A stretch of DNA of 64,000 nucleotides from Sphingobacteriales bacterium (GCA_004293485.1 RDYW01000032.1:1-64000), one strand, 5' to 3'. Shown: positions 8,492 to 52,758, counted from the stretch's first letter. Notes: generated by a model from the sequence alone, not told the origin. Translations and numbers: made by a program.

Positions 8492-9967
8492 CTATTCATT
8501 TTCATCCCCAAACTCGTTGTTAAACAAGCTACCAAACATATCTGTAAAGGCAAAACCTTTTTCTAAAAAACCTTTGCTTATAAGCGAAAACTCGGCCAAG
8601 CCGTGTAGTACAAACTCCATGTACAATAGCTCTTGGTTTTGGCTAATGGTGGGGTGAAAAGTTTTTACTACCGTTTGCAAGCCCGGGATGCTAAAAATTA
8701 AGGCTTTATATTCTTGGTTGCTAATATCATCTAAAAGGTTAAGGGAGTTACCGTTGCCAAACCAATTGGTAATTTCAATATAGGGGTTTTTAATTTTGGT
8801 TTTTTTAATTTTTTCGGGATCAGGAAAATAGGTTTGTAATAAAGTTTTTATGGCTTTACCTATCATTATGTTGGCAACTTTTGCTGGTCCTTCAAGTTCG
8901 CCTTCATAAACCAATTCTATTTTCCCAGTAATGGCAGGTATAACACCCAAAAAATCATTAATGCGAACTACAGTATTTTGTTCGTTGTTTATCAGCATTC
9001 TACGTTCGGCGTGTGCAATTAAGTTTTCGTAAGCTGTAATGGTAAGCCTTGCCGATACGCCCGACTTTTTATCAATATACTCCGAATTTCGGGCCTCAAA
9101 TGCTATTTGTTCTATCAAATCTTTCACCAATCCATCGGCTTCAATATGTTGTTTTTGGTGGGATGTAAGCTGTGCTTCTTGTTGAGTAATTTTCCGCGAA
9201 AGCGCAATAGACTTAGCATAATGGGTTAAAATTTGGCTTTCAATTCTATCTTTTAGTGGCGTTACAATGCTGCCACGGTTGGTATAATCTTCGGGATTGG
9301 CGGTAAATACAAATTGAATATCTAGCAGTAAGCGCAATTTAAAGCCTCGTATTTGTATGTCTTTTTCTTGCAAAATATTAAATAAAGCTACCTGTATACG
9401 GGCTTGTAAATCGGGCAGTTCGTTTATTACAAAAATACCTCGGTGCGCCCGCGGTATTAAACCAAAATGTATTACTCGCTCGTCGGAGTAGTTAAGTTTT
9501 TGTGTAGCCGCTTTTATAGGGTCGATATCGCCAATAAGGTCGGCTATAGTAACATCGGGGGTAGCAAGCTTTTCGGTGTACCTATCGCTACGGTGTAGCC
9601 AGGCTATTGGTGTGTCATCTCCATATACCATTAGCTGATTTTTTGCGTACCAGGTTATGGGGTTTAAAGGGTCGTCAAACAATTCGGAGCCTTGTACATA
9701 AGGTACATATTCGTCTAATAAATGTATCATTAGGCGGGCAATACGGGTTTTTGCTTGGCCACGTAACCCTAAAAGTAATAGGTTATGGCGAGCCAACAAG
9801 GCCGTTTGTAAATCGGGCAATACCGTATCTTCGTAGCCAACAATACCCTCAAAACCTAGTTCTTTGTTTTTTAAACGAATAATCAAATTTTCTCTCAATT
9901 CTTCTTTTACCGTTCTGCTTTTGTACGTTGTTGATTTTAATTGTCCTAATGTTTTAATGTGGTGCAT
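8492..9967 (-). CDS. MoxR/magnesium-chelatase-like AAA+ ATPase
   Basis: A 491-aa AAA+ protein related to magnesium-chelatase subunit I and MoxR ATPases. Such proteins typically act with a VWA-domain partner to remodel or mature other proteins. Walker A is GLRGQAKT (67-74), with R/Q replacing the usual P/G residues. The Walker B region reads GIFVINEL (INEL at 181-184), so the glutamate is kept and the aspartate is replaced by asparagine. A sensor-1-like FVFTANPEDY and an arginine-rich PLKDRIESQ follow. The VWA gene sits 35 bp upstream on the same strand, the standard MoxR-VWA arrangement. The partner substrates are unknown. Confidence 0.85.
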   Translation of the reverse strand: MHHIKTLGQLKSTTYKSRTVKEELRENLIIRLKNKELGFEGIVGYEDTVLPDLQTALLARHNLLLLGLRGQAKTRIARLMIHLLDEYVPYVQGSELFDDPLNPITWYAKNQLMVYGDDTPIAWLHRSDRYTEKLATPDVTIADLIGDIDPIKAATQKLNYSDERVIHFGLIPRAHRGIFVINELPDLQARIQVALFNILQEKDIQIRGFKLRLLLDIQFVFTANPEDYTNRGSIVTPLKDRIESQILTHYAKSIALSRKITQQEAQLTSHQKQHIEADGLVKDLIEQIAFEARNSEYIDKKSGVSARLTITAYENLIAHAERRMLINNEQNTVVRINDFLGVIPAITGKIELVYEGELEGPAKVANIMIGKAIKTLLQTYFPDPEKIKKTKIKNPYIEITNWFGNGNSLNLLDDISNQEYKALIFSIPGLQTVVKTFHPTISQNQELLYMEFVLHGLAEFSLISKGFLEKGFAFTDMFGSLFNNEFGDENE

Positions 9968-42623: not shown

Positions 42624-44201
42624 TTAGTTGATAATTATTTTTTTAGCTATGCTGTTTTTTTCGCCCACAACCTGTAAAATATAAACGCCTTTGGCCAAAG
42701 CATTGGTGTTTATAACCAATGCTTTGGGGTTGTTTATGGCTTGCGCCGATGCTACTTTTATACCGTTAAGGTTTATAATGCTTGCGCTTTTTAGGGCATC
42801 GGCACCAGCCACCACATTTAATATGCCATTGGTAATAGGGTTAGGGTAAAAGCTAATTTCTTGTGCTAGTCCTTTTACCATAGCTATTTTTTCGTAGGTA
42901 GTTGTAGAGCCATCGTTATCGGTACTGGTAATGCGGTAATAATTATCGCCAGCCAAAGGGTTAGTATCAATGTATTGGGTGGCCGTAGCTGGTAAGGTGG
43001 CTAAGGGTGCAAAGGTATTATCCGCCCCCGAGCGTTCGATAATTATGTTTTTTACATTTACGCTGCTTGCGCTTGTCCAGTTTATTTGGTTGCCAGTAAC
43101 AATGGCTTTGGCAGTTAGGCTTGTTAGGTTTAAGGGTAAAGTAGTGTTTAATGCGGTAATTTGCGCTTGGGTAAGGGCTGTGTTAAAAATTTGTAAATCA
43201 TCAATTGATGCATTTAAGCCCCTTTGAGAACCGCCTAAAACACCTCCTAGATAAAAAGTTGTTCCAACAGTATTTAATGTTTTTGCGCCACTCCATAAAA
43301 GCGTTCCGTTATTATAAACGTAGGCTATAGTGCCATCGTAAACAAAAACCATTGTGTACCAAGTATTTATAGATAAATTGTTAGCAAATAAGGCATCATT
43401 TGCACCCCAGAAAAAATTTTTAGTATTTGGATTTTGCTGTGTCCAACCATAAGCTTGATTAGTAATTACTGAACCATAAGAGAATACATAATTCTGAGAA
43501 ATTAATTCTGAGAAGTTGATACGCATAACTATTGATCGGGAGGCATTCCCCACTGGTATATTTGCTAATGTTGAACTAAAAACAGATGAAGGATTGCTAA
43601 TGTTGGGTTGATAAAAAAGCAAACTACTATTGTTAGATGCATATTGTGTAATTCCATTATTTGATATAAAGGAAGTTACCCCATCGGTGGCGGTTAAGCT
43701 GCCGTTAAAGTTAAAATGATAAATAGGTGTAGGTGCTAGCGTACCAGCTGATAGGGTTGTAAATGTTGCAATTGGCGAAAGTACTGTACTAATACTATTT
43801 GCTGCCTCTACCCTAAATTGGTAGGTTGTACCTGCTGTTAAATTTGTTAAATTAATACTTCCGTTTGATGAAATGGTAGAATTGTACCCAGTAGGCGAAA
43901 CTACACTGCTAGATAAAGCTGAAGTACCATAGTAAACTTTTACGGTAGTAGCAGCATTACCAGGGTTAACAGTAAAATTTATTGTAGCACCAGAACTTGT
44001 AACGTTTGTTACTGGACTGTTGGTAATAGTTGGTGCAGTGGATTTTGGTATTTCTGGTCCAATAATAACACCGCCACCACCGCCACCGCCATCAATTGGT
44101 TTACCGCCAGCAATAGCATTGCCATATTGGGCAAAACTGTTGTTACCTAATGCTACCATTGCTATTAAAATAGCTGTTTTAAAAAGTAATTTTTGTTTCA
44201 T
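42624..44201 (-). CDS. Secreted LamG/FN3 protein with T9SS C-terminal sorting domain
   Basis: A 525-aa exported surface protein. The signal peptide (1-24) ends NSFAQ. A glycine-rich stretch (GGGGGGG, about 38-44) leads to a fibronectin-III-like domain (about 55-150, TNVTSSGATINFTV). A LamG/concanavalin-like domain (about 158-345) follows, with the family phrase FSYGSVITNQ and INTWYTMVFVYDGT. After a second beta-rich linker, the last ~75 residues form a type-A T9SS sorting domain (ISFYPNPITNGILNVVAG at its start, GVYILQVVGE near the end). It would be cleaved and anchored or released by the Por secretion system. It shares a regulatory element with the lipocalin gene and LytTR pair nearby. Confidence 0.88.
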   Translation of the reverse strand: MKQKLLFKTAILIAMVALGNNSFAQYGNAIAGGKPIDGGGGGGGVIIGPEIPKSTAPTITNSPVTNVTSSGATINFTVNPGNAATTVKVYYGTSALSSSVVSPTGYNSTISSNGSINLTNLTAGTTYQFRVEAANSISTVLSPIATFTTLSAGTLAPTPIYHFNFNGSLTATDGVTSFISNNGITQYASNNSSLLFYQPNISNPSSVFSSTLANIPVGNASRSIVMRINFSELISQNYVFSYGSVITNQAYGWTQQNPNTKNFFWGANDALFANNLSINTWYTMVFVYDGTIAYVYNNGTLLWSGAKTLNTVGTTFYLGGVLGGSQRGLNASIDDLQIFNTALTQAQITALNTTLPLNLTSLTAKAIVTGNQINWTSASSVNVKNIIIERSGADNTFAPLATLPATATQYIDTNPLAGDNYYRITSTDNDGSTTTYEKIAMVKGLAQEISFYPNPITNGILNVVAGADALKSASIINLNGIKVASAQAINNPKALVINTNALAKGVYILQVVGEKNSIAKKIIIN

Positions 44202-44292
44202 ATTTTTATTTTTTTGAGTTTACGAAGTGATATTTATGTTTATTTTTAATTTAAATACAAAAAAAGTTTTATGGTAAATGGTACACCAATAC

Positions 44293-44388
44293 TTAGCGAT
44301 TGCGCATTTGGGTTAGCCATTTGCAGTAGGCTTTTAAATATTTTTCGATAGAGATATGATAAACTATAAAACGTATTATTTTAATCAT
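44293..44388 (-). CDS. Candidate 31-aa cationic amphipathic peptide ORF
   Basis: A minus-strand ORF of 31 codons starts ATG at 44388 and ends TAA at 44293, between the 76-bp element at 44432 and the LamG gene. The peptide starts MIKIIRFIVYHISIEKYLKA and ends KWLTQMRNR. It has four K, three R, one E and many I, F, Y, V, so it would form a cationic amphipathic helix. No family is recognised. It may be a secreted or signalling peptide or chance; an AT-rich 31-codon frame with such a composition is not improbable. No recognisable -7 box fits perfectly (CAATTTTG, 44414-44421, is close). Confidence 0.35.
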   Translation of the reverse strand: MIKIIRFIVYHISIEKYLKAYCKWLTQMRNR

Positions 44389-44431
44389 ATTTTTAGTTTT
44401 TTAATTTAATTCAAAATTGGCTAATTCATTT

Positions 44432-44507
44432 GCAAAAAATAGTGCCACTTTGTGTAGCATAGGTGTAGGCACACCAAATGTGGGTTTGAGTATATAAAGC
44501 GGAAAAT
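44432..44507. promoter_or_regulatory. 76-bp LytTR-locus element, copy 1; note on the 44202-44837 gap
   Basis: Ungapped alignment to copy 2 (45449-45524) gives 59 of 76 identical positions. The core is an imperfect palindrome GGTGTAGGCACACC followed by AAATG, then the perfectly shared GTTTGAGTATATAAAGC. Additional TACACCAA/TTGGTGTA half-sites lie nearby (44282, 45424). Both copies face the same way relative to the minus-strand exported-protein genes (LamG, lipocalin-like), 231 and 63 bp upstream of their starts. I propose it as the binding/promoter region of the LytTR regulator encoded at 45541. The gap 44202-44837 otherwise holds the small ORF at 44293, a degenerate AATCCGCAATC repeat and the terminator at 44760. 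Confidence 0.65.
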
Positions 44508-44759
44508 ATAGTTGTGGTAAATGGTGTAAATTTTACATTAATATTTTAAGTAAGGTTTATGGTTTTTTTTAGCACTAATCCTTATCTTTTTTTTGCAACT
44601 TGGTTTTCTTTCTCTTTTAATTTCCCCCAAAGGGAGAGTATATAAAATGCCAGCCGTAAATATTAGGGCTTATAAATTATGGGTAATTTTTACACAATTT
44701 TACAGGGTGCAATGGCAAATTAAAAATCCGCAATCCGCAATCAAAAATCTAAATTTATT

Positions 44760-44808
44760 ACATAAAAAAGCGTCATAAATTATTTCAAATTATGACGCTT
44801 TTTTATGT
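44760..44808. terminator. Bidirectional rho-independent terminator
   Basis: A perfect 19-bp stem (44760-44778 with 44790-44808; core GCGTCATAA) encloses an 11-nt loop. It is flanked by A6 on the left arm and T6 on the right arm, so it can end transcription on both strands. It terminates the lipocalin-like gene (minus strand, ends 44838) and any rightward transcript from the region of copy 1. Confidence 0.88.
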
Positions 44809-44837
44809 TAAACTAAATATTTGTAAGCAACTAACTG

Positions 44838-45386
44838 TTACATAGCATTTGGATTGTAAATTTCGTACCATTGTTCAAAATCATCTCCGTTAGGCGCAAC
44901 TATTTCAATTTTAAAGCTTGTAGCGGTAAGTTCTTTAATCGTAAACACTATTGTTGGCATGGTTTTGTACATATTGTTTAAAGTAAATTTGTTACCTTCT
45001 ATTTTCCAAGTACCATTTTGCCCGGCGGTAGTAGCTTGGCCCTCTAAACAGCTTTTAAAGCTACTGTTGAATGTATTTATCCATGTACCATCGGCATTAA
45101 AAGTAATATACATTGGACTTATACCAAAATTTTTAGATTTTTCTTTTGCTTCTAAAATTTTCGAACTATTTTTTTTACTTACTGCAGGTGCTGCATCGCT
45201 ATCTTTGTATGGGCAGCTAATATTGGCTGTAACTAATTCAGCGTAAGCACTACCCGAACTACTGCCTTCTGATAATTCCCATTTTTTGCCCACTAATATG
45301 GATACTTCATCTTTTTTGTCTTTTTTACAGCTATATATGGCAAATACAGCCATTAATAAGGTAATTGCTAGTGTAATTTTTTTCAT
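44838..45386 (-). CDS. Lipocalin-like lipoprotein
   Basis: A 182-aa predicted lipoprotein: lipobox IYSC with lipidated C20 followed by a lysine/aspartate-rich spacer (KKDKKDEV). The mature part begins VGKKWELSEG. It carries a beta-rich pattern with YITFNADGTWIN, GTWKIEGNKFTL and TATSFKIEIV, characteristic of the Bacteroidota 'lipocalin-like' (PF13648) domain. Ligand is unknown. It is divergent from the LytTR regulator gene across a 154-bp region carrying element copy 2, and ends at a strong bidirectional terminator. Co-regulation with the response regulator is likely. Confidence 0.82.
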   Translation of the reverse strand: MKKITLAITLLMAVFAIYSCKKDKKDEVSILVGKKWELSEGSSSGSAYAELVTANISCPYKDSDAAPAVSKKNSSKILEAKEKSKNFGISPMYITFNADGTWINTFNSSFKSCLEGQATTAGQNGTWKIEGNKFTLNNMYKTMPTIVFTIKELTATSFKIEIVAPNGDDFEQWYEIYNPNAM

Positions 45387-45448
45387 AACTTTATACTTTT
45401 TGTTTATGTACGTTTAAAATATTTACACCAAAAATGGTTTATTTGCAG

Positions 45449-45524
45449 GCAACAAATGGGGCTACTTTACGTAATGTGGGTGTAGTTACACCAAATGCTA
45501 GTTTGAGTATATAAAGCAAAAAAT
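45449..45524. promoter_or_regulatory. 76-bp LytTR-locus element, copy 2
   Basis: The second copy of the element at 44432-44507, 78% identical. Its core is GGTGTAGTTACACC, then AAATG, then GTTTGAGTATATAAAGC. It sits between the divergent lipocalin-like gene (start 45386) and the LytTR gene (start 45541), so autoregulation is plausible. A further half-site TACACCAA lies at 45424, 63 bp (about six helical turns) from the copy inside the element. Confidence 0.65.
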
Positions 45525-45540
45525 TTTAAGCATAAATATA

Positions 45541-46284
45541 ATGAGAGCCATAATTATAGACGATGAAGCACACGCCAGAGAAACACTATTAAATATACTT
45601 ACCCAACATTGCCCCCAAGTACAAATAATTGCACAAGCGGCAAATGTAAAAGATGCAGTAAAGCTAATAAACCAGCACTACATACAATTGGTTTTTTTAG
45701 ATGTAGATATGCCCAACGAAAACGGTTTTGTCTTGTTTGATTATTTTGATAAACCTACTTTTACAACCATTTTTTGTACCGCATACAGCGATTATGCCTG
45801 TAAAGCCTTCGAGGTATCGGCTATTGATTACGTATTAAAACCTATTAGCAGTAGCAAAATTGTAACAGCCGTAAATAAGGCTATAACCACTAACAACCTA
45901 CAAAACAAGCAAACAGTAGGTGCGTTAAAAGAAAACCTTAGCCTAAACCAATTGCAAAAAATAGCCTTGCCCCTAGCCGATGGTTTGGTGTTTATTAAAA
46001 TTGATGATATTTATTATTTTGAGGCCGATGGCAGCTACTGCAACGTAATTACTGCTACCGAAACATTAATGGTTTGCAAAAAAATTAAGGATTTTCACGA
46101 ACTATTTGCCCAAGATGCTAGGTTTTTTAGGGTACACCGCAGCTACTTGGTAAATATACAGCAATTAAAAACGTACAGTAAAAAAGAAGGCCTAAATTTA
46201 TATTTTGGCAATAACAAATGTGTACCTATGGCTAGGGAGAAAAAAAATGAATTTGAAATGCATATAGGTAATTTAAGTGTGTAG
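45541..46284 (+). CDS. LytTR-family response regulator
   Basis: A 247-aa response regulator: receiver domain (1-120) with acidic pocket D7/D8, phospho-acceptor D54 in LVFLDVDMP and the conserved K in DYVLKPI (about 100). The LytTR DNA-binding domain (about 145-247) contains the family pattern DIYYFEADGSYCNVIT, FFRVHRSYLVN and a C-terminal GNNKCVPMARE. LytTR proteins bind direct or imperfect repeats upstream of target genes. The kinase gene begins at the next base, a translationally coupled two-component pair. Two copies of a 76-bp element nearby are probable targets. Confidence 0.92.
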   Translation: MRAIIIDDEAHARETLLNILTQHCPQVQIIAQAANVKDAVKLINQHYIQLVFLDVDMPNENGFVLFDYFDKPTFTTIFCTAYSDYACKAFEVSAIDYVLKPISSSKIVTAVNKAITTNNLQNKQTVGALKENLSLNQLQKIALPLADGLVFIKIDDIYYFEADGSYCNVITATETLMVCKKIKDFHELFAQDARFFRVHRSYLVNIQQLKTYSKKEGLNLYFGNNKCVPMAREKKNEFEMHIGNLSV

Positions 46285-48396
46285 ATGAGAAAAACTGTAT
46301 TAACCTTTTTATGTTTATTACTTGCTTTTTTTGCGTTTTCGCAAACTGCAAATCAACGTAAAAGTATAAACTTTAATGTTGATAGCTTAAAATGCCAACA
46401 ATTATACCAATTAATAGAAGCCGAATGGGACGAAAATATATGGATAAAATATAACCAAGAATTGTTTTTATTAAGTAGTAAAAATAGTATAAACAAGGCT
46501 TTAACCAATAAACAAAGAAACGTATTTTTAAAATTTTTAAGCGATGCTAAAGTAAATGAAGGGGCTTACTATCAATATAAAAGTAAACATCAAAAGGCAA
46601 TAAATAATTACACTATATCATACTTAATTGCTAAAAATATAAATTATTATGAAGGCTGCGCCATTGCGTTAGGAAATATAGGTACATCGTTTGATTATTT
46701 AGGTAAAATAGATAGCAGCTTAACCTATTTTATTAAAGCATTAAATTACGCATACAAATCAAAAAGCGATGCCTCAATAGCTTACGTACTTACCGATTTG
46801 GGCTATGTGTACAATAACCTAGGAAATTACAAAAAGGCAATTGTTTACAATTTAAAAGCATTAAGCTTATTTACAAAACTTAAAGATTACGAAGGTTTAG
46901 AACGTACCTATTTTGCCATTGGTAAAATTTTTGATAATCAAAAAGAATTCGATAAAAGTATATTCTACTATAAAAAGGCTTTGTTTATTTCAACAAAAAC
47001 CAATAACCAAGAAAGGCTATGTATAAACTTAAATAGTTTGGCAAATGTTTATATTATCTTAAAAAAATACCCCGAAGCAAAAAAAAACTTAGAAAAATCT
47101 TTTCTGATAACCAAAAAAAATAATTTTTTGGCAACAACTGCTGTTTGTTTTTCACTTTTTGGCGATTATTACTTTTCAAATAATGAGTATAAAAATTCAG
47201 AACTAAATTATTTAAAAGCCATAAAAATATTTAAAAACACACAAACCAATTTCTTTTATGCAAAATCATTAACACAGTTAGCAAAAATTTATTTTAAAAA
47301 TAACCAACTAAACTTGGCACAATATTATGCACAAAAATCGTACACAATAACTATAAAAAATAACTACCCCATTGAAATTAAGTCATCTTCCGAAATTTTA
47401 AGCAAAATTTATACACAAAAAAAACAGTATAAAAATGCTTTGGCTTTTACCCAAATTGTACAAAAAATTAACGATAGCATTTATTACAACGAAAAACAAA
47501 ACATTGCTTTAAAGCTAGAACATTGGTACAATTCTAAATTAAAAGAAACTAAAATAAATAAATTAACCCAAGAGAAAAAAATAGCCGATCTAGAAAATCA
47601 ACGTCAACAAAATATTGTTATAATTTTGGTAGTGATATTGGTTTTTTTAACTACTTTAAGTTATTTTATTTTTAATAGGTATAAAACTAAAAAACAAAAC
47701 CAGTATTTAAAGCTACAATTATTAGAGGTTGATAAAAGAATTTTCGCCGAAAAACAAGCCGCCGAAAGCGAACTTAAAGCCCTAAAAAGCCAAATGAACC
47801 CTCACTTTATTTTTAACGCCCTTAGCAGCATACAACACCAGTTTATGTACGGCGATAAAAACCTTGCCAACGAACAAATGGGCAATTTTACCTACCTTAC
47901 AAGGCAAATATTAAACGTATCGGGGCTTAAACAAATATTAGTAGCCACCGAAATAGAAATTTTAACCAAATACCTCGAACTCGAAAAAATGCGTTTCGAA
48001 ACTAATTTTGAATACGAAATTACACTAAGTGGCAACCTCGACCCCGATTACCACGAACTACCCCCAATGCTTTTACAGCCTTTGTTAGAAAACAGCATAA
48101 AACACGGCTTAATGCACCTGCAAGGTTTAAAAAAATTAAGCCTAAACTTTAACCTAAACCCTACCGAAGATGTGCTAATTTGCACCATTATTGATAACGG
48201 AATAGGCAGGCAAAAAGCTGCGGAAATGAAAACTAAAAATATAAGCAGCCATCAATCCTACGCTAGCCAAGCCCTAATAAAACGCTTAAATATTTGGAAT
48301 AAAAATATTAATAACCCATTGGTTTACAACGATATTTTAGATAATGCAGGCAATGTTTGCGGCACACAAGTGGTGCTAATGATTGAAGTGCATTAA
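46285..48396 (+). CDS. TPR-containing LytS-type sensor histidine kinase
   Basis: A 703-aa membrane kinase. A signal peptide (1-19, ending FAFS) is followed by a periplasmic array of tetratricopeptide repeats (about 60-430), visible as repeats of Y-x4-G-x2-Y-x10-A-x4-K. One transmembrane helix (about 443-463) and a short coiled-coil lead to a His_kinase PF06580 domain with H507 in QMNPHFIFNALSS. A separate HATPase_c with NSIKHGL (N-box) and DNGIGR (G-box) follows. TPR input in place of a small-ligand domain suggests sensing of a protein or peptide partner. It directly abuts its response regulator. Confidence 0.9.
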   Translation: MRKTVLTFLCLLLAFFAFSQTANQRKSINFNVDSLKCQQLYQLIEAEWDENIWIKYNQELFLLSSKNSINKALTNKQRNVFLKFLSDAKVNEGAYYQYKSKHQKAINNYTISYLIAKNINYYEGCAIALGNIGTSFDYLGKIDSSLTYFIKALNYAYKSKSDASIAYVLTDLGYVYNNLGNYKKAIVYNLKALSLFTKLKDYEGLERTYFAIGKIFDNQKEFDKSIFYYKKALFISTKTNNQERLCINLNSLANVYIILKKYPEAKKNLEKSFLITKKNNFLATTAVCFSLFGDYYFSNNEYKNSELNYLKAIKIFKNTQTNFFYAKSLTQLAKIYFKNNQLNLAQYYAQKSYTITIKNNYPIEIKSSSEILSKIYTQKKQYKNALAFTQIVQKINDSIYYNEKQNIALKLEHWYNSKLKETKINKLTQEKKIADLENQRQQNIVIILVVILVFLTTLSYFIFNRYKTKKQNQYLKLQLLEVDKRIFAEKQAAESELKALKSQMNPHFIFNALSSIQHQFMYGDKNLANEQMGNFTYLTRQILNVSGLKQILVATEIEILTKYLELEKMRFETNFEYEITLSGNLDPDYHELPPMLLQPLLENSIKHGLMHLQGLKKLSLNFNLNPTEDVLICTIIDNGIGRQKAAEMKTKNISSHQSYASQALIKRLNIWNKNINNPLVYNDILDNAGNVCGTQVVLMIEVH

Positions 48397-50523: not shown

Positions 50524-52758
50524 TTACGCTGTTTTAAAATTAATTTTTTCGGTTTCCGAGTCAAACCGAGTAATATCGGTAATGCCTTTTACTTCCTTTA
50601 ACTTGGCTATTAAATTTTCTAAATGTTGGGTATCGTTTACATATATCATTATAGAGCCGCTAAATATTCCCTCATCGCTATCAACGGTTATGCTGCGCAT
50701 ATTTACCTTAAAATCGTTGGATATAATTTGGGTAAGGTTGTTTATTAAGCCTACTTCATCAATACCTGTAATTTGCAAGCCTGTTAAAAAGGCCAATTGT
50801 TTTTGGCTTGTCCATTTGGCTTTTAATATACGGTAGCCAAAGCTCGACATTAGTTTGGTTGCATTAGGGCAATTGGTGCGGTGTATTTTTATGCCTTCGC
50901 TTACAGTTACAAAACCAAAAACATCGTCGCCAGGGATAGGGTTACAGCAGCTAGATAGCTTGTAATCTATTTTTTGTAAATCTTCGCCTATTAATAATAT
51001 ATCGCTGTCTTTGGTTTTTACTTGTTTAATTAACGATTGTATGTTTTCGTTATCAGTAGTTTGTTGCGGTTTTTGTTCTACAATTTTTTCTGATGCTACA
51101 TACTCTTTAAGGTCTTTAACATCTATCAATCCTTTGGCTACGTTGTAAAATAAATCTTGGGTTGATTGAAGCTTAAAATAGTACGATAGCTTTAAAATAT
51201 TATCGGTATTGTAGGTAATTTTTAATGATTTTAATTTACGTTCCAGTATTTCTTTACCATCATCAGCAATTTTTCGTTTTTCATCTTTTAATGATGATTT
51301 TATTTTTGCTTTTGCCTTTGCAGTAACTACATACGTTAGCCAATCTTCTTTTGGGGTTTGCTTGGTTGAGGTAATAATTTCTACTTGGTCGCCGTTTTGT
51401 AGCTTGTACGATAGCGGTACCAGCTTATGGTTTACCTTTGCACCAATACATTTTGCGCCTACATCCGAGTGTATTTCGAAGGCAAAATCCAATGCAGTAG
51501 CATCAATAGGTAGCTGCATTAAATCGCCCTTGGGGGTAAAAATAAAAATCTCGTCCGAAAAAAGGTTCATCTTAAAATCGTCCAAAAAATCAAGCGCATT
51601 AGCCTCGGGGTTGCTTAGTAATTCTCGCACTTTGGTAACCCATTGGTCTAGCCCGCTATCGCTTGATGATTCTTTATATTTCCAATGCGCTGCAAACCCT
51701 TTTTCGGCAATTTCGTTCATCCGCTGCGAGCGTATTTGTACCTCCACCCATTGGCCTTTAGGCCCCATTACGGTGGTGTGTAAAGATTCGTACCCGTTTG
51801 CCTTAGGCGATGATATCCAATCTCTTAACCTATCGGGATTAGGGCGATATAAATCGGTAACAATAGAATATGCTTTCCACGATTCCGATTTTTCCAGCTC
51901 CGTATTACAAATTAAAATAATACGGATGGCAAATAAATCGTACACCTCCTCAAACGGGATGCCCTTTTTTTTCATCTTCGTCCATATCGAATGGATAGAT
52001 TTTGGCCTGCCTAGCACCTGTGCCTCAAGGCCTTGGCCGCTTAATATTTTGGTTATAGGCCCTATAAATTCGCTTATAAAATGCTCGCGTTCAGCTTTTT
52101 TCTCGTTCAGTTTTAGGGCAATAAACTTATACGTTTCGGGCTCCATATACTTCATTGATAAATCTTCGAGTTCCGATTTTAAGCTGTATAAGCCCAGCCT
52201 ATGCGCCAAAGGGGCATATAAATATACCGTTTCCGAGCAAATTTTAAGCTGCTTATCCCTTGGCATAAATTCCATAGTTCGCATATTATGCAACCTATCG
52301 GCAAGTTTTATTAATATTACCCGTACATCATCGGCAAGGGTAAGCAACATTTTACGAAAATTTTCGGCCTGCATACTGCTATTGGCATCAAACACGCCCG
52401 AAATTTTGGTTAAGCCATCAATAATTTTAGTAACTTTTTTTCCAAATTTATGCTCAATATCATCTAGCGTAATATCGGTATCTTCAACCACATCATGTAG
52501 CAAAGCACATACAATTGATGTAGTGCCCAAGCCAATTTCTTCGGCTGCAATTTGTGCTACCGCAATAGGATGGTAAATATAAGGTTCGCCCGATTTTCGA
52601 CGCATATCTTTATGGCTTTCTACAGCCATATCAAATGCCAAGCGTATCATCCCCTTATCTCCTTTTTTTAAGGTTGATTTACAGGCTCGTAACAATGCTC
52701 GGTATCTTTTTAAAATCTCCGACTTTTCTTGTTCTATATCAATTGTGTAATCTTTCAT
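50524..52758 (-). CDS. rel: Bifunctional (p)ppGpp synthetase/hydrolase (Rel/SpoT)
   Basis: A 744-aa long-form RSH enzyme controlling stringent response alarmones. The HD hydrolase domain is intact (ALLHDVVEDTDITLDDI, with catalytic H and D). The synthetase domain follows (DLFAIRIILIC, then SIVTDLYRPNPDR and PKANGYESLHTTVMGP). The TGS domain (DEIFIFTPKGDLMQLP) is followed by a conserved SCCNPIPGDDVFGFVTVSEG zinc-finger region and a C-terminal ACT domain. Both activities are therefore expected. It is first in a run with fur and purA. The gene is divergent from DUF4294; 103 bp separate their starts. Confidence 0.96.
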   Translation of the reverse strand: MKDYTIDIEQEKSEILKRYRALLRACKSTLKKGDKGMIRLAFDMAVESHKDMRRKSGEPYIYHPIAVAQIAAEEIGLGTTSIVCALLHDVVEDTDITLDDIEHKFGKKVTKIIDGLTKISGVFDANSSMQAENFRKMLLTLADDVRVILIKLADRLHNMRTMEFMPRDKQLKICSETVYLYAPLAHRLGLYSLKSELEDLSMKYMEPETYKFIALKLNEKKAEREHFISEFIGPITKILSGQGLEAQVLGRPKSIHSIWTKMKKKGIPFEEVYDLFAIRIILICNTELEKSESWKAYSIVTDLYRPNPDRLRDWISSPKANGYESLHTTVMGPKGQWVEVQIRSQRMNEIAEKGFAAHWKYKESSSDSGLDQWVTKVRELLSNPEANALDFLDDFKMNLFSDEIFIFTPKGDLMQLPIDATALDFAFEIHSDVGAKCIGAKVNHKLVPLSYKLQNGDQVEIITSTKQTPKEDWLTYVVTAKAKAKIKSSLKDEKRKIADDGKEILERKLKSLKITYNTDNILKLSYYFKLQSTQDLFYNVAKGLIDVKDLKEYVASEKIVEQKPQQTTDNENIQSLIKQVKTKDSDILLIGEDLQKIDYKLSSCCNPIPGDDVFGFVTVSEGIKIHRTNCPNATKLMSSFGYRILKAKWTSQKQLAFLTGLQITGIDEVGLINNLTQIISNDFKVNMRSITVDSDEGIFSGSIMIYVNDTQHLENLIAKLKEVKGITDITRFDSETEKINFKTA

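Follow-up and report, generated by a model that had tools for sequence, protein, structure and literature searches.

Polymorphic two-component signalling with swappable sensors is best known from peptide quorum sensing in Gram-positive bacteria. The agr types have in common a hypervariable region that runs through agrB, agrD and agrC (PMC10482373), and pherotypes have been described for pneumococcal comC (PMC5629823). A limited literature search found no report of such signalling in Bacteroidota. Two systems resemble parts of the locus described here: the LRS-like operons of Bacteroides, with 11-bp repeats separated by an 11-bp spacer (PMC6193735), and FimS/FimR of Porphyromonas gingivalis, in which a TPR-rich periplasmic sensor kinase is tied to surface-protein expression and the signal of FimS is reported as unknown (PMC11053733).

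The locus lies in a 64,000-nucleotide stretch of a Sphingobacteriales genome (the window; own genome, G000). Its order is T9SS/LamG gene (minus strand), element 1, lipoprotein gene (minus), element 2, LytTR gene (plus) and kinase gene (plus). The public MAG PH2015_11S_37_14 (G016) carries a complete cassette (L095), and a third genome, G006, has it broken across the ends of two contigs, C172 stopping just past element 1 and C193 opening with the kinase module. All three genomes look like fragmented drafts, possibly chimeric in places. The features are as follows.

42624-44201, minus strand: exported surface protein with signal peptide, FN3-like part, LamG domain and T9SS type A sorting domain
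44293-44388, minus strand: candidate 31-codon ORF MIKIIRFIVYHISIEKYLKAYCKWLTQMRNR, lying past element 1 and ahead of the T9SS gene
44404-44507 (76-bp core 44432-44507), minus strand: element copy 1, 73% identical to copy 2, 99% to its counterpart in G016 and 88% to that in G006
44760-44808, no strand assigned: inverted repeat, 22 bp, 95% complementary, the likely terminator of the lipoprotein gene
44838-45386, minus strand: Lipocalin_4 lipoprotein with a variable middle (aa 34-87) and constant ends (aa 1-33 and 88-176)
45421-45524, minus strand: element copy 2, in the gap that separates the lipoprotein gene from the divergent LytTR gene
45541-46284, plus strand: LytTR response regulator (97% identity to that of G016)
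46285-47748, plus strand: variable part of the kinase, made up of signal peptide, periplasmic TPR solenoid, TM helix and linker
47749-48396, plus strand: constant module of the histidine kinase (His_kinase PF06580), aa 488-640 98% identical in G016

The gene assignments of an earlier, sequence-only reading (LytTR response regulator, TPR His_kinase, T9SS CTD/LamG protein and Lipocalin_4 protein) were correct. A regulator with Response_reg and LytTR domains beside a PF06580 His_kinase sensor places the pair among LytS/LytTR-type two-component systems, and the kinase does carry a periplasmic TPR sensor. In a structure model of the sensor (mean pLDDT 82) a TPR solenoid leads into a long membrane-crossing helix. 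Among solved folds the sensor comes closest to peptide-binding TPR proteins (LGN, and also the Rap and NprR quorum receptors, TMt ~0.7), a likeness that is suggestive, though the fold is generic. Among 121 family genomes, a sample that does not include G016, the nearest relative of the sensor is 26% identical.

The C-terminal type A sorting domain (TIGR04183 / PF18962) identifies the LamG protein as T9SS cargo, and LamG/T9SS proteins are expected to be exposed at the cell surface. Its LamG part (aa 155-333) is variable and its ends are constant; the counterpart in G006 has kept the signal peptide, the FN3-like part and the sorting domain and lacks LamG. The lipoprotein was found in 2 of 201 family genomes. 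Its structure model was unusable (pLDDT 46), and a search of the PDB with its sequence gave no match below E 0.1. The 31-codon ORF (44388-44293), which the earlier reading did not notice, is open in both G016 and G006. Its substitutions show a modest third-position bias and are weakly coding-like, leaving its coding status uncertain; it is not the variable part of the cassette. A widespread peptide family was considered and rejected for this ORF, since matches among 101 family genomes were weak (E 0.005 or worse) and some contained stops.

As in agr and comCDE, the regulator of the cassette is constant, the sensor of its kinase is hypervariable and the exported products of the locus vary as well. 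Identity to G016 is 29% in the sensor, 98% in the kinase core and 97% in the regulator, the hypervariable-sensor pattern of agr/com-like signalling. In the comparison of the two full alleles the lipoprotein and the T9SS protein also contain variable blocks, and either is a candidate for a co-variable signal gene. The cassette differs in that agr and com use a polytopic membrane sensor, whereas here the sensor is a periplasmic TPR solenoid in a Gram-negative bacterium, and in that the sensor is accompanied by a lipoprotein and a T9SS protein instead of a short pheromone and a maturation protease. The cassette contains no AgrB-like maturation protease, cyclic peptide precursor or other peptide-processing gene, which separates it from agr proper. 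It shares with FimS/FimR the TPR-rich periplasmic kinase and the tie to surface proteins, but has a LytTR partner and a LytS-type His_kinase; its score against the FimS model (NF053520) is 73.3, compared with an equivalog cut-off of 600 bits, and hypervariability of FimS is unreported in the text searched. Like LRS, the cassette has a LytTR protein that probably feeds back locally by way of sites next to the gene encoding it. In LRS, however, the LytTR protein is paired with a membrane inhibitor, while the cassette has a receiver domain and an adjacent kinase and thus does not belong to that class.

The nearest gene arrangements were found in three further members of the genus, G009, G011 and G013, which carry the same gene triad, with LytTR proteins 50-54% identical and a short lipoprotein beside the kinase (N-terminal BLASTP E 1e-5). 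Unlike the cassette, these loci have no adjacent T9SS gene or element, and their sensor is not hypervariable. In G011 (L096 11338-12656) two tandem lipoproteins lie behind the LytTR-TPR kinase pair; G009 and G013 have one.

Alignment of the cassettes of G000 and G016 gave long stretches of 95-100% identity broken by blocks of about 50% identity, which comprise the middle of the LamG protein gene (43200-43680), the middle of the lipoprotein gene (45120-45300) and the sensor half of the kinase gene (46285-47750). Sliding identity placed the block edges within ~15 bp at 45120 and 45300 in the lipoprotein gene, at the start of the kinase gene (46285) and at the sensor/kinase junction (47750). The edges in the LamG protein are softer, residues 93-154 being intermediate. 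At the protein level, lipoprotein residues 34-87 are 33% identical and the flanking parts 93-94%. Synonymous divergence follows the same boundaries: dS runs from 0.16 through 1.42 to 0.019 along the lipoprotein gene and falls from 1.42 in the sensor to 0.145 in the kinase core, with values of 0.063 in the LytTR gene and 1.3 in the LamG block. Because synonymous jumps of 10- to 70-fold within one gene are more than selection on the protein alone can produce, segments of different ancestry must have been joined by recombination. The TPR sensor, the lipoprotein middle and the LamG domain are deeply diverged alleles set between near-identical constant parts.

This pattern was absent from the control systems. 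In the TPR-kinase/LytTR system of G009, G011 and G013 the sensors are 98/76/77% identical and the kinases 92/80/79%, and an unrelated LytS-like kinase and its regulator, compared between G000 and G016, are 81% and 85% identical. Hypervariability is thus a property of this cassette and not of TPR kinases generally. Other T9SS proteins of these genomes share the C-terminal part at 73-77% DNA identity (L150 1-706, L151 1-706, L152 1-1104 and L153 1-4444) and lie at contig ends in G006 and G016, a hint of gene conversion among sorting domains.

Background DNA identity between G000 and G016, measured over 20-40 kb of the window, is 71-86% and mostly 76-80%; purA is 85% and the ABC permease 82% identical. 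Against this background, constant parts at 95-100% are too similar for vertical descent, which points to exchange of the cassette. Its site differs as well: in G000 it lies between the ABC permease and purA, and in G016 and G006 at the mfd side. The purA and ABC permease flanks in G016, G006 and G004 have no cassette, nor has mfd in G000. On these comparisons the cassette has evidently been exchanged horizontally, at different chromosomal sites. The earlier reading had missed both this exchange and the en bloc replacement of outward-facing domains. No virus or plasmid copies of the cassette were matched.

Several features of the surroundings were also recorded. Both relA (window 50524-52758) and mfd (G000:C7:57968-61351) are 97% identical to G016, compared with the 71-86% background, which suggests separate recent imports. 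Window positions 44714-44751 belong to an intergenic repeat, AAATCCGCAATCCGCAATCAAAAATCTA, that is dispersed in many copies through G000, G006 and G016, also flanks the cassette in G016 and G006, and is a possible recombination substrate. In G016 and G006 the T9SS gene has downstream of it a 57-aa CPTC...CNQC zinc-ribbon-like ORF (L095 ~170-380 and L099 ~8540-8740, minus strand), conserved as judged by eye and absent from the window.

The duplicated element had been recognized from the sequence alone, and its main features held. Positions 44432-44507 and 45449-45524 are identical at 59 of 76 positions without gaps, as counted by hand, while the best 76-mer match in 500 dinucleotide shuffles of the same two intergenic regions reached 46 (mean 38.9, sd 1.6). 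The match extends without gaps to 104 bp at 73% identity (44404-44507 and 45421-45524; BLAST E 3.5e-11 in a search against the entire 2.2-Mb genome G000) and forms the biggest repeat family within 12 kb. The sequence GTTTGAGTATATAAAGC is perfectly common to both copies, as had been claimed, and has no other match in the 64-kb window with up to three mismatches. Both copies lie in one orientation on the minus strand upstream of exported-protein genes, copy 1 before the T9SS/LamG gene with the small ORF in between. Copy 2, which also adjoins the LytTR gene, leaves 35 bp to the lipoprotein ATG on one side and 17 bp to the LytTR ATG on the other, and could thus act on both of these divergent genes.

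Smaller motifs within the element fared less well. An alignment of five copies (minus strand) has the common blocks GCTTTATATACTCAAA, CATTTGGT, CTACAC, TAC, AAAGT, ATTTnTTGC, CCAnTTTTG and TAAAT. The palindrome GGTGTAnnTACACC noted earlier is broken in the G006 copy (GGTACAACTACACG). The TACACCAA half-sites do occur at 44282 and 45424, but the second is part of the 104-bp element, and G016 has both in altered form. The best inverted and direct repeats within the element gave P 0.45 and 0.64, respectively, against a column-permutation null. Taking the LytTR binding-site format as two ~9-bp direct repeats 11-13 bp apart, a pair of the type CCATTTGTT-N13-CCATTTTTG with a 22-bp period is found in every copy (P 0.24 against a permuted-column null). 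No credible match to the consensus Bacteroidota promoter was found in the element on the gene side, and a search of Rfam gave no family at gathering score, its two chance-level matches both lying outside the element; a riboswitch or known structured RNA leader was rejected on this basis. As a specific site GGTGTAnnTACACC was also rejected, with 15 matches in the window, at up to two mismatches, compared with 10 expected. At the same setting it has 130 matches on both strands of its own genome and 45 in a reversed control, about threefold, the control not being dinucleotide-matched.

A sequence model built from the copies found only five in 18 genus genomes, all in G000, G016 and G006, confining the element to the cassette; the 2.2-Mb genome G000 contains none beyond the two. 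On these counts a genome-wide regulon of the element was rejected. In G016 the copies are kept at 98-99% along with the same four genes. The LytTR-TPR kinase-lipoprotein loci of G009, G011 and G013 do without the element; at 50-54% identity they are paralogue-level relatives and not the same cassette, hence no instance of the genes being kept while the element is absent. These observations support the view that two element copies and four genes make up one local regulatory unit. The earlier idea of a regulon is borne out to this extent, by the 98-99% conserved copies and the exclusivity of the element; no direct repeat of the LytTR format was significant. The element is conserved as a whole, and only its linkage and exclusivity favour the LytTR protein as its putative binder.

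Taken together, these results lead us to favour, by a modest degree, a model that treats the locus as a horizontally exchanged two-component cassette, compact and polymorphic, whose inner parts are constant and outer parts swappable and which controls its own T9SS protein and lipoprotein. A periplasmic ligand would act on the TPR sensor kinase and lead to phosphorylation of the LytTR protein, which would act at both elements to switch the lipoprotein gene and the T9SS transcript, the small ORF included; at copy 2 it would also act on its own operon, as local feedback. That the kinase phosphorylates the LytTR protein, and that the latter acts at the two elements on these three targets, we infer to be probable. 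By analogy with agr and comCDE, we tentatively propose that the ligand may be a product of the cassette (the T9SS protein, a fragment, or the lipoprotein's variable region) and the alleles signalling types, and that recombination in the constant parts may shuffle the variable modules. In the fuller form of this proposal, which is similarly tentative, each allele of the periplasmic TPR sensor would be specific for the variable region of the lipoprotein or T9SS protein of its own cassette, so that cells would answer only their own type; the cassette would spread between species, and recombination in its constant segments would reshuffle the types. Self-recognition is kept this tentative on a comparison that covers two full alleles and one partial allele (G006).

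The element might instead be an RNA leader, or a duplicated promoter or leader that answers to a sigma factor or a different regulator, with no binding by the LytTR protein. We consider this rather unlikely, yet several observations agree with it: 104 bp is long for a single LytTR site, no direct repeat is significant, copy 1 retains the whole block though there is no gene on its other side, and the LytTR loci of G009, G011 and G013 are without it. It is harder to reconcile with the confinement of the element to the cassette with this LytTR gene, which one copy adjoins, and with the Rfam search, which gave no family at gathering score. Two similar copies 1 kb apart could also be a MITE-like mobile repeat inserted twice, which we regard as extremely improbable: no genome has more than two copies, the 18 genus genomes contain no others, orientation to the genes is the same, position is conserved in two genomes, and neither dispersed copies nor significant inverted repeats, terminal ones included, were found.

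The mosaic, too, could have another origin. Strain variants collapsed during assembly are conceivable in many-contig drafts, of which G006 breaks inside the cassette, but reading frames are intact through every junction in both mosaics, the G000 locus lies within a 97.8-kb contig, and a collapsed assembly would still imply both alleles in the population; an artefact is very unlikely. A more serious contender, possible though short of likely, is environmental or surface sensing, as the earlier reading proposed: the TPR kinase would respond to a cue from outside and regulate surface proteins much as FimS/FimR does, the diversity arising through selection by phage, predators or niches that acts separately on each outward-facing protein, without self-signalling. 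The expected surface exposure of LamG/T9SS proteins fits this explanation, as does the match of kinase aa 155-481 to the FimS model (E 1.3e-20). FimS is itself a multi-TPR periplasmic sensor that controls fimbriae, and point mutants in its TPRs alter output (PMC11053733). Yet the score lies far below the equivalog cut-off, and an outside cue alone does not explain why the periplasmic sensor, and not the surface target, diverged most, or why the mosaic extends over three linked genes when the control TPR kinases show none.

In the model of a polymorphic cassette, the parts that differ sharply are those that face outward, as in systems that tell their own signals from foreign ones, and self-specific signalling is plausible by analogy. 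If true, the cassette would provide a testable self-recognition system with surface proteins in place of short pheromones. Moreover, if the lipoprotein or the T9SS protein were the ligand, this would tell what many periplasmic TPR kinases of the phylum, FimS included, sense.
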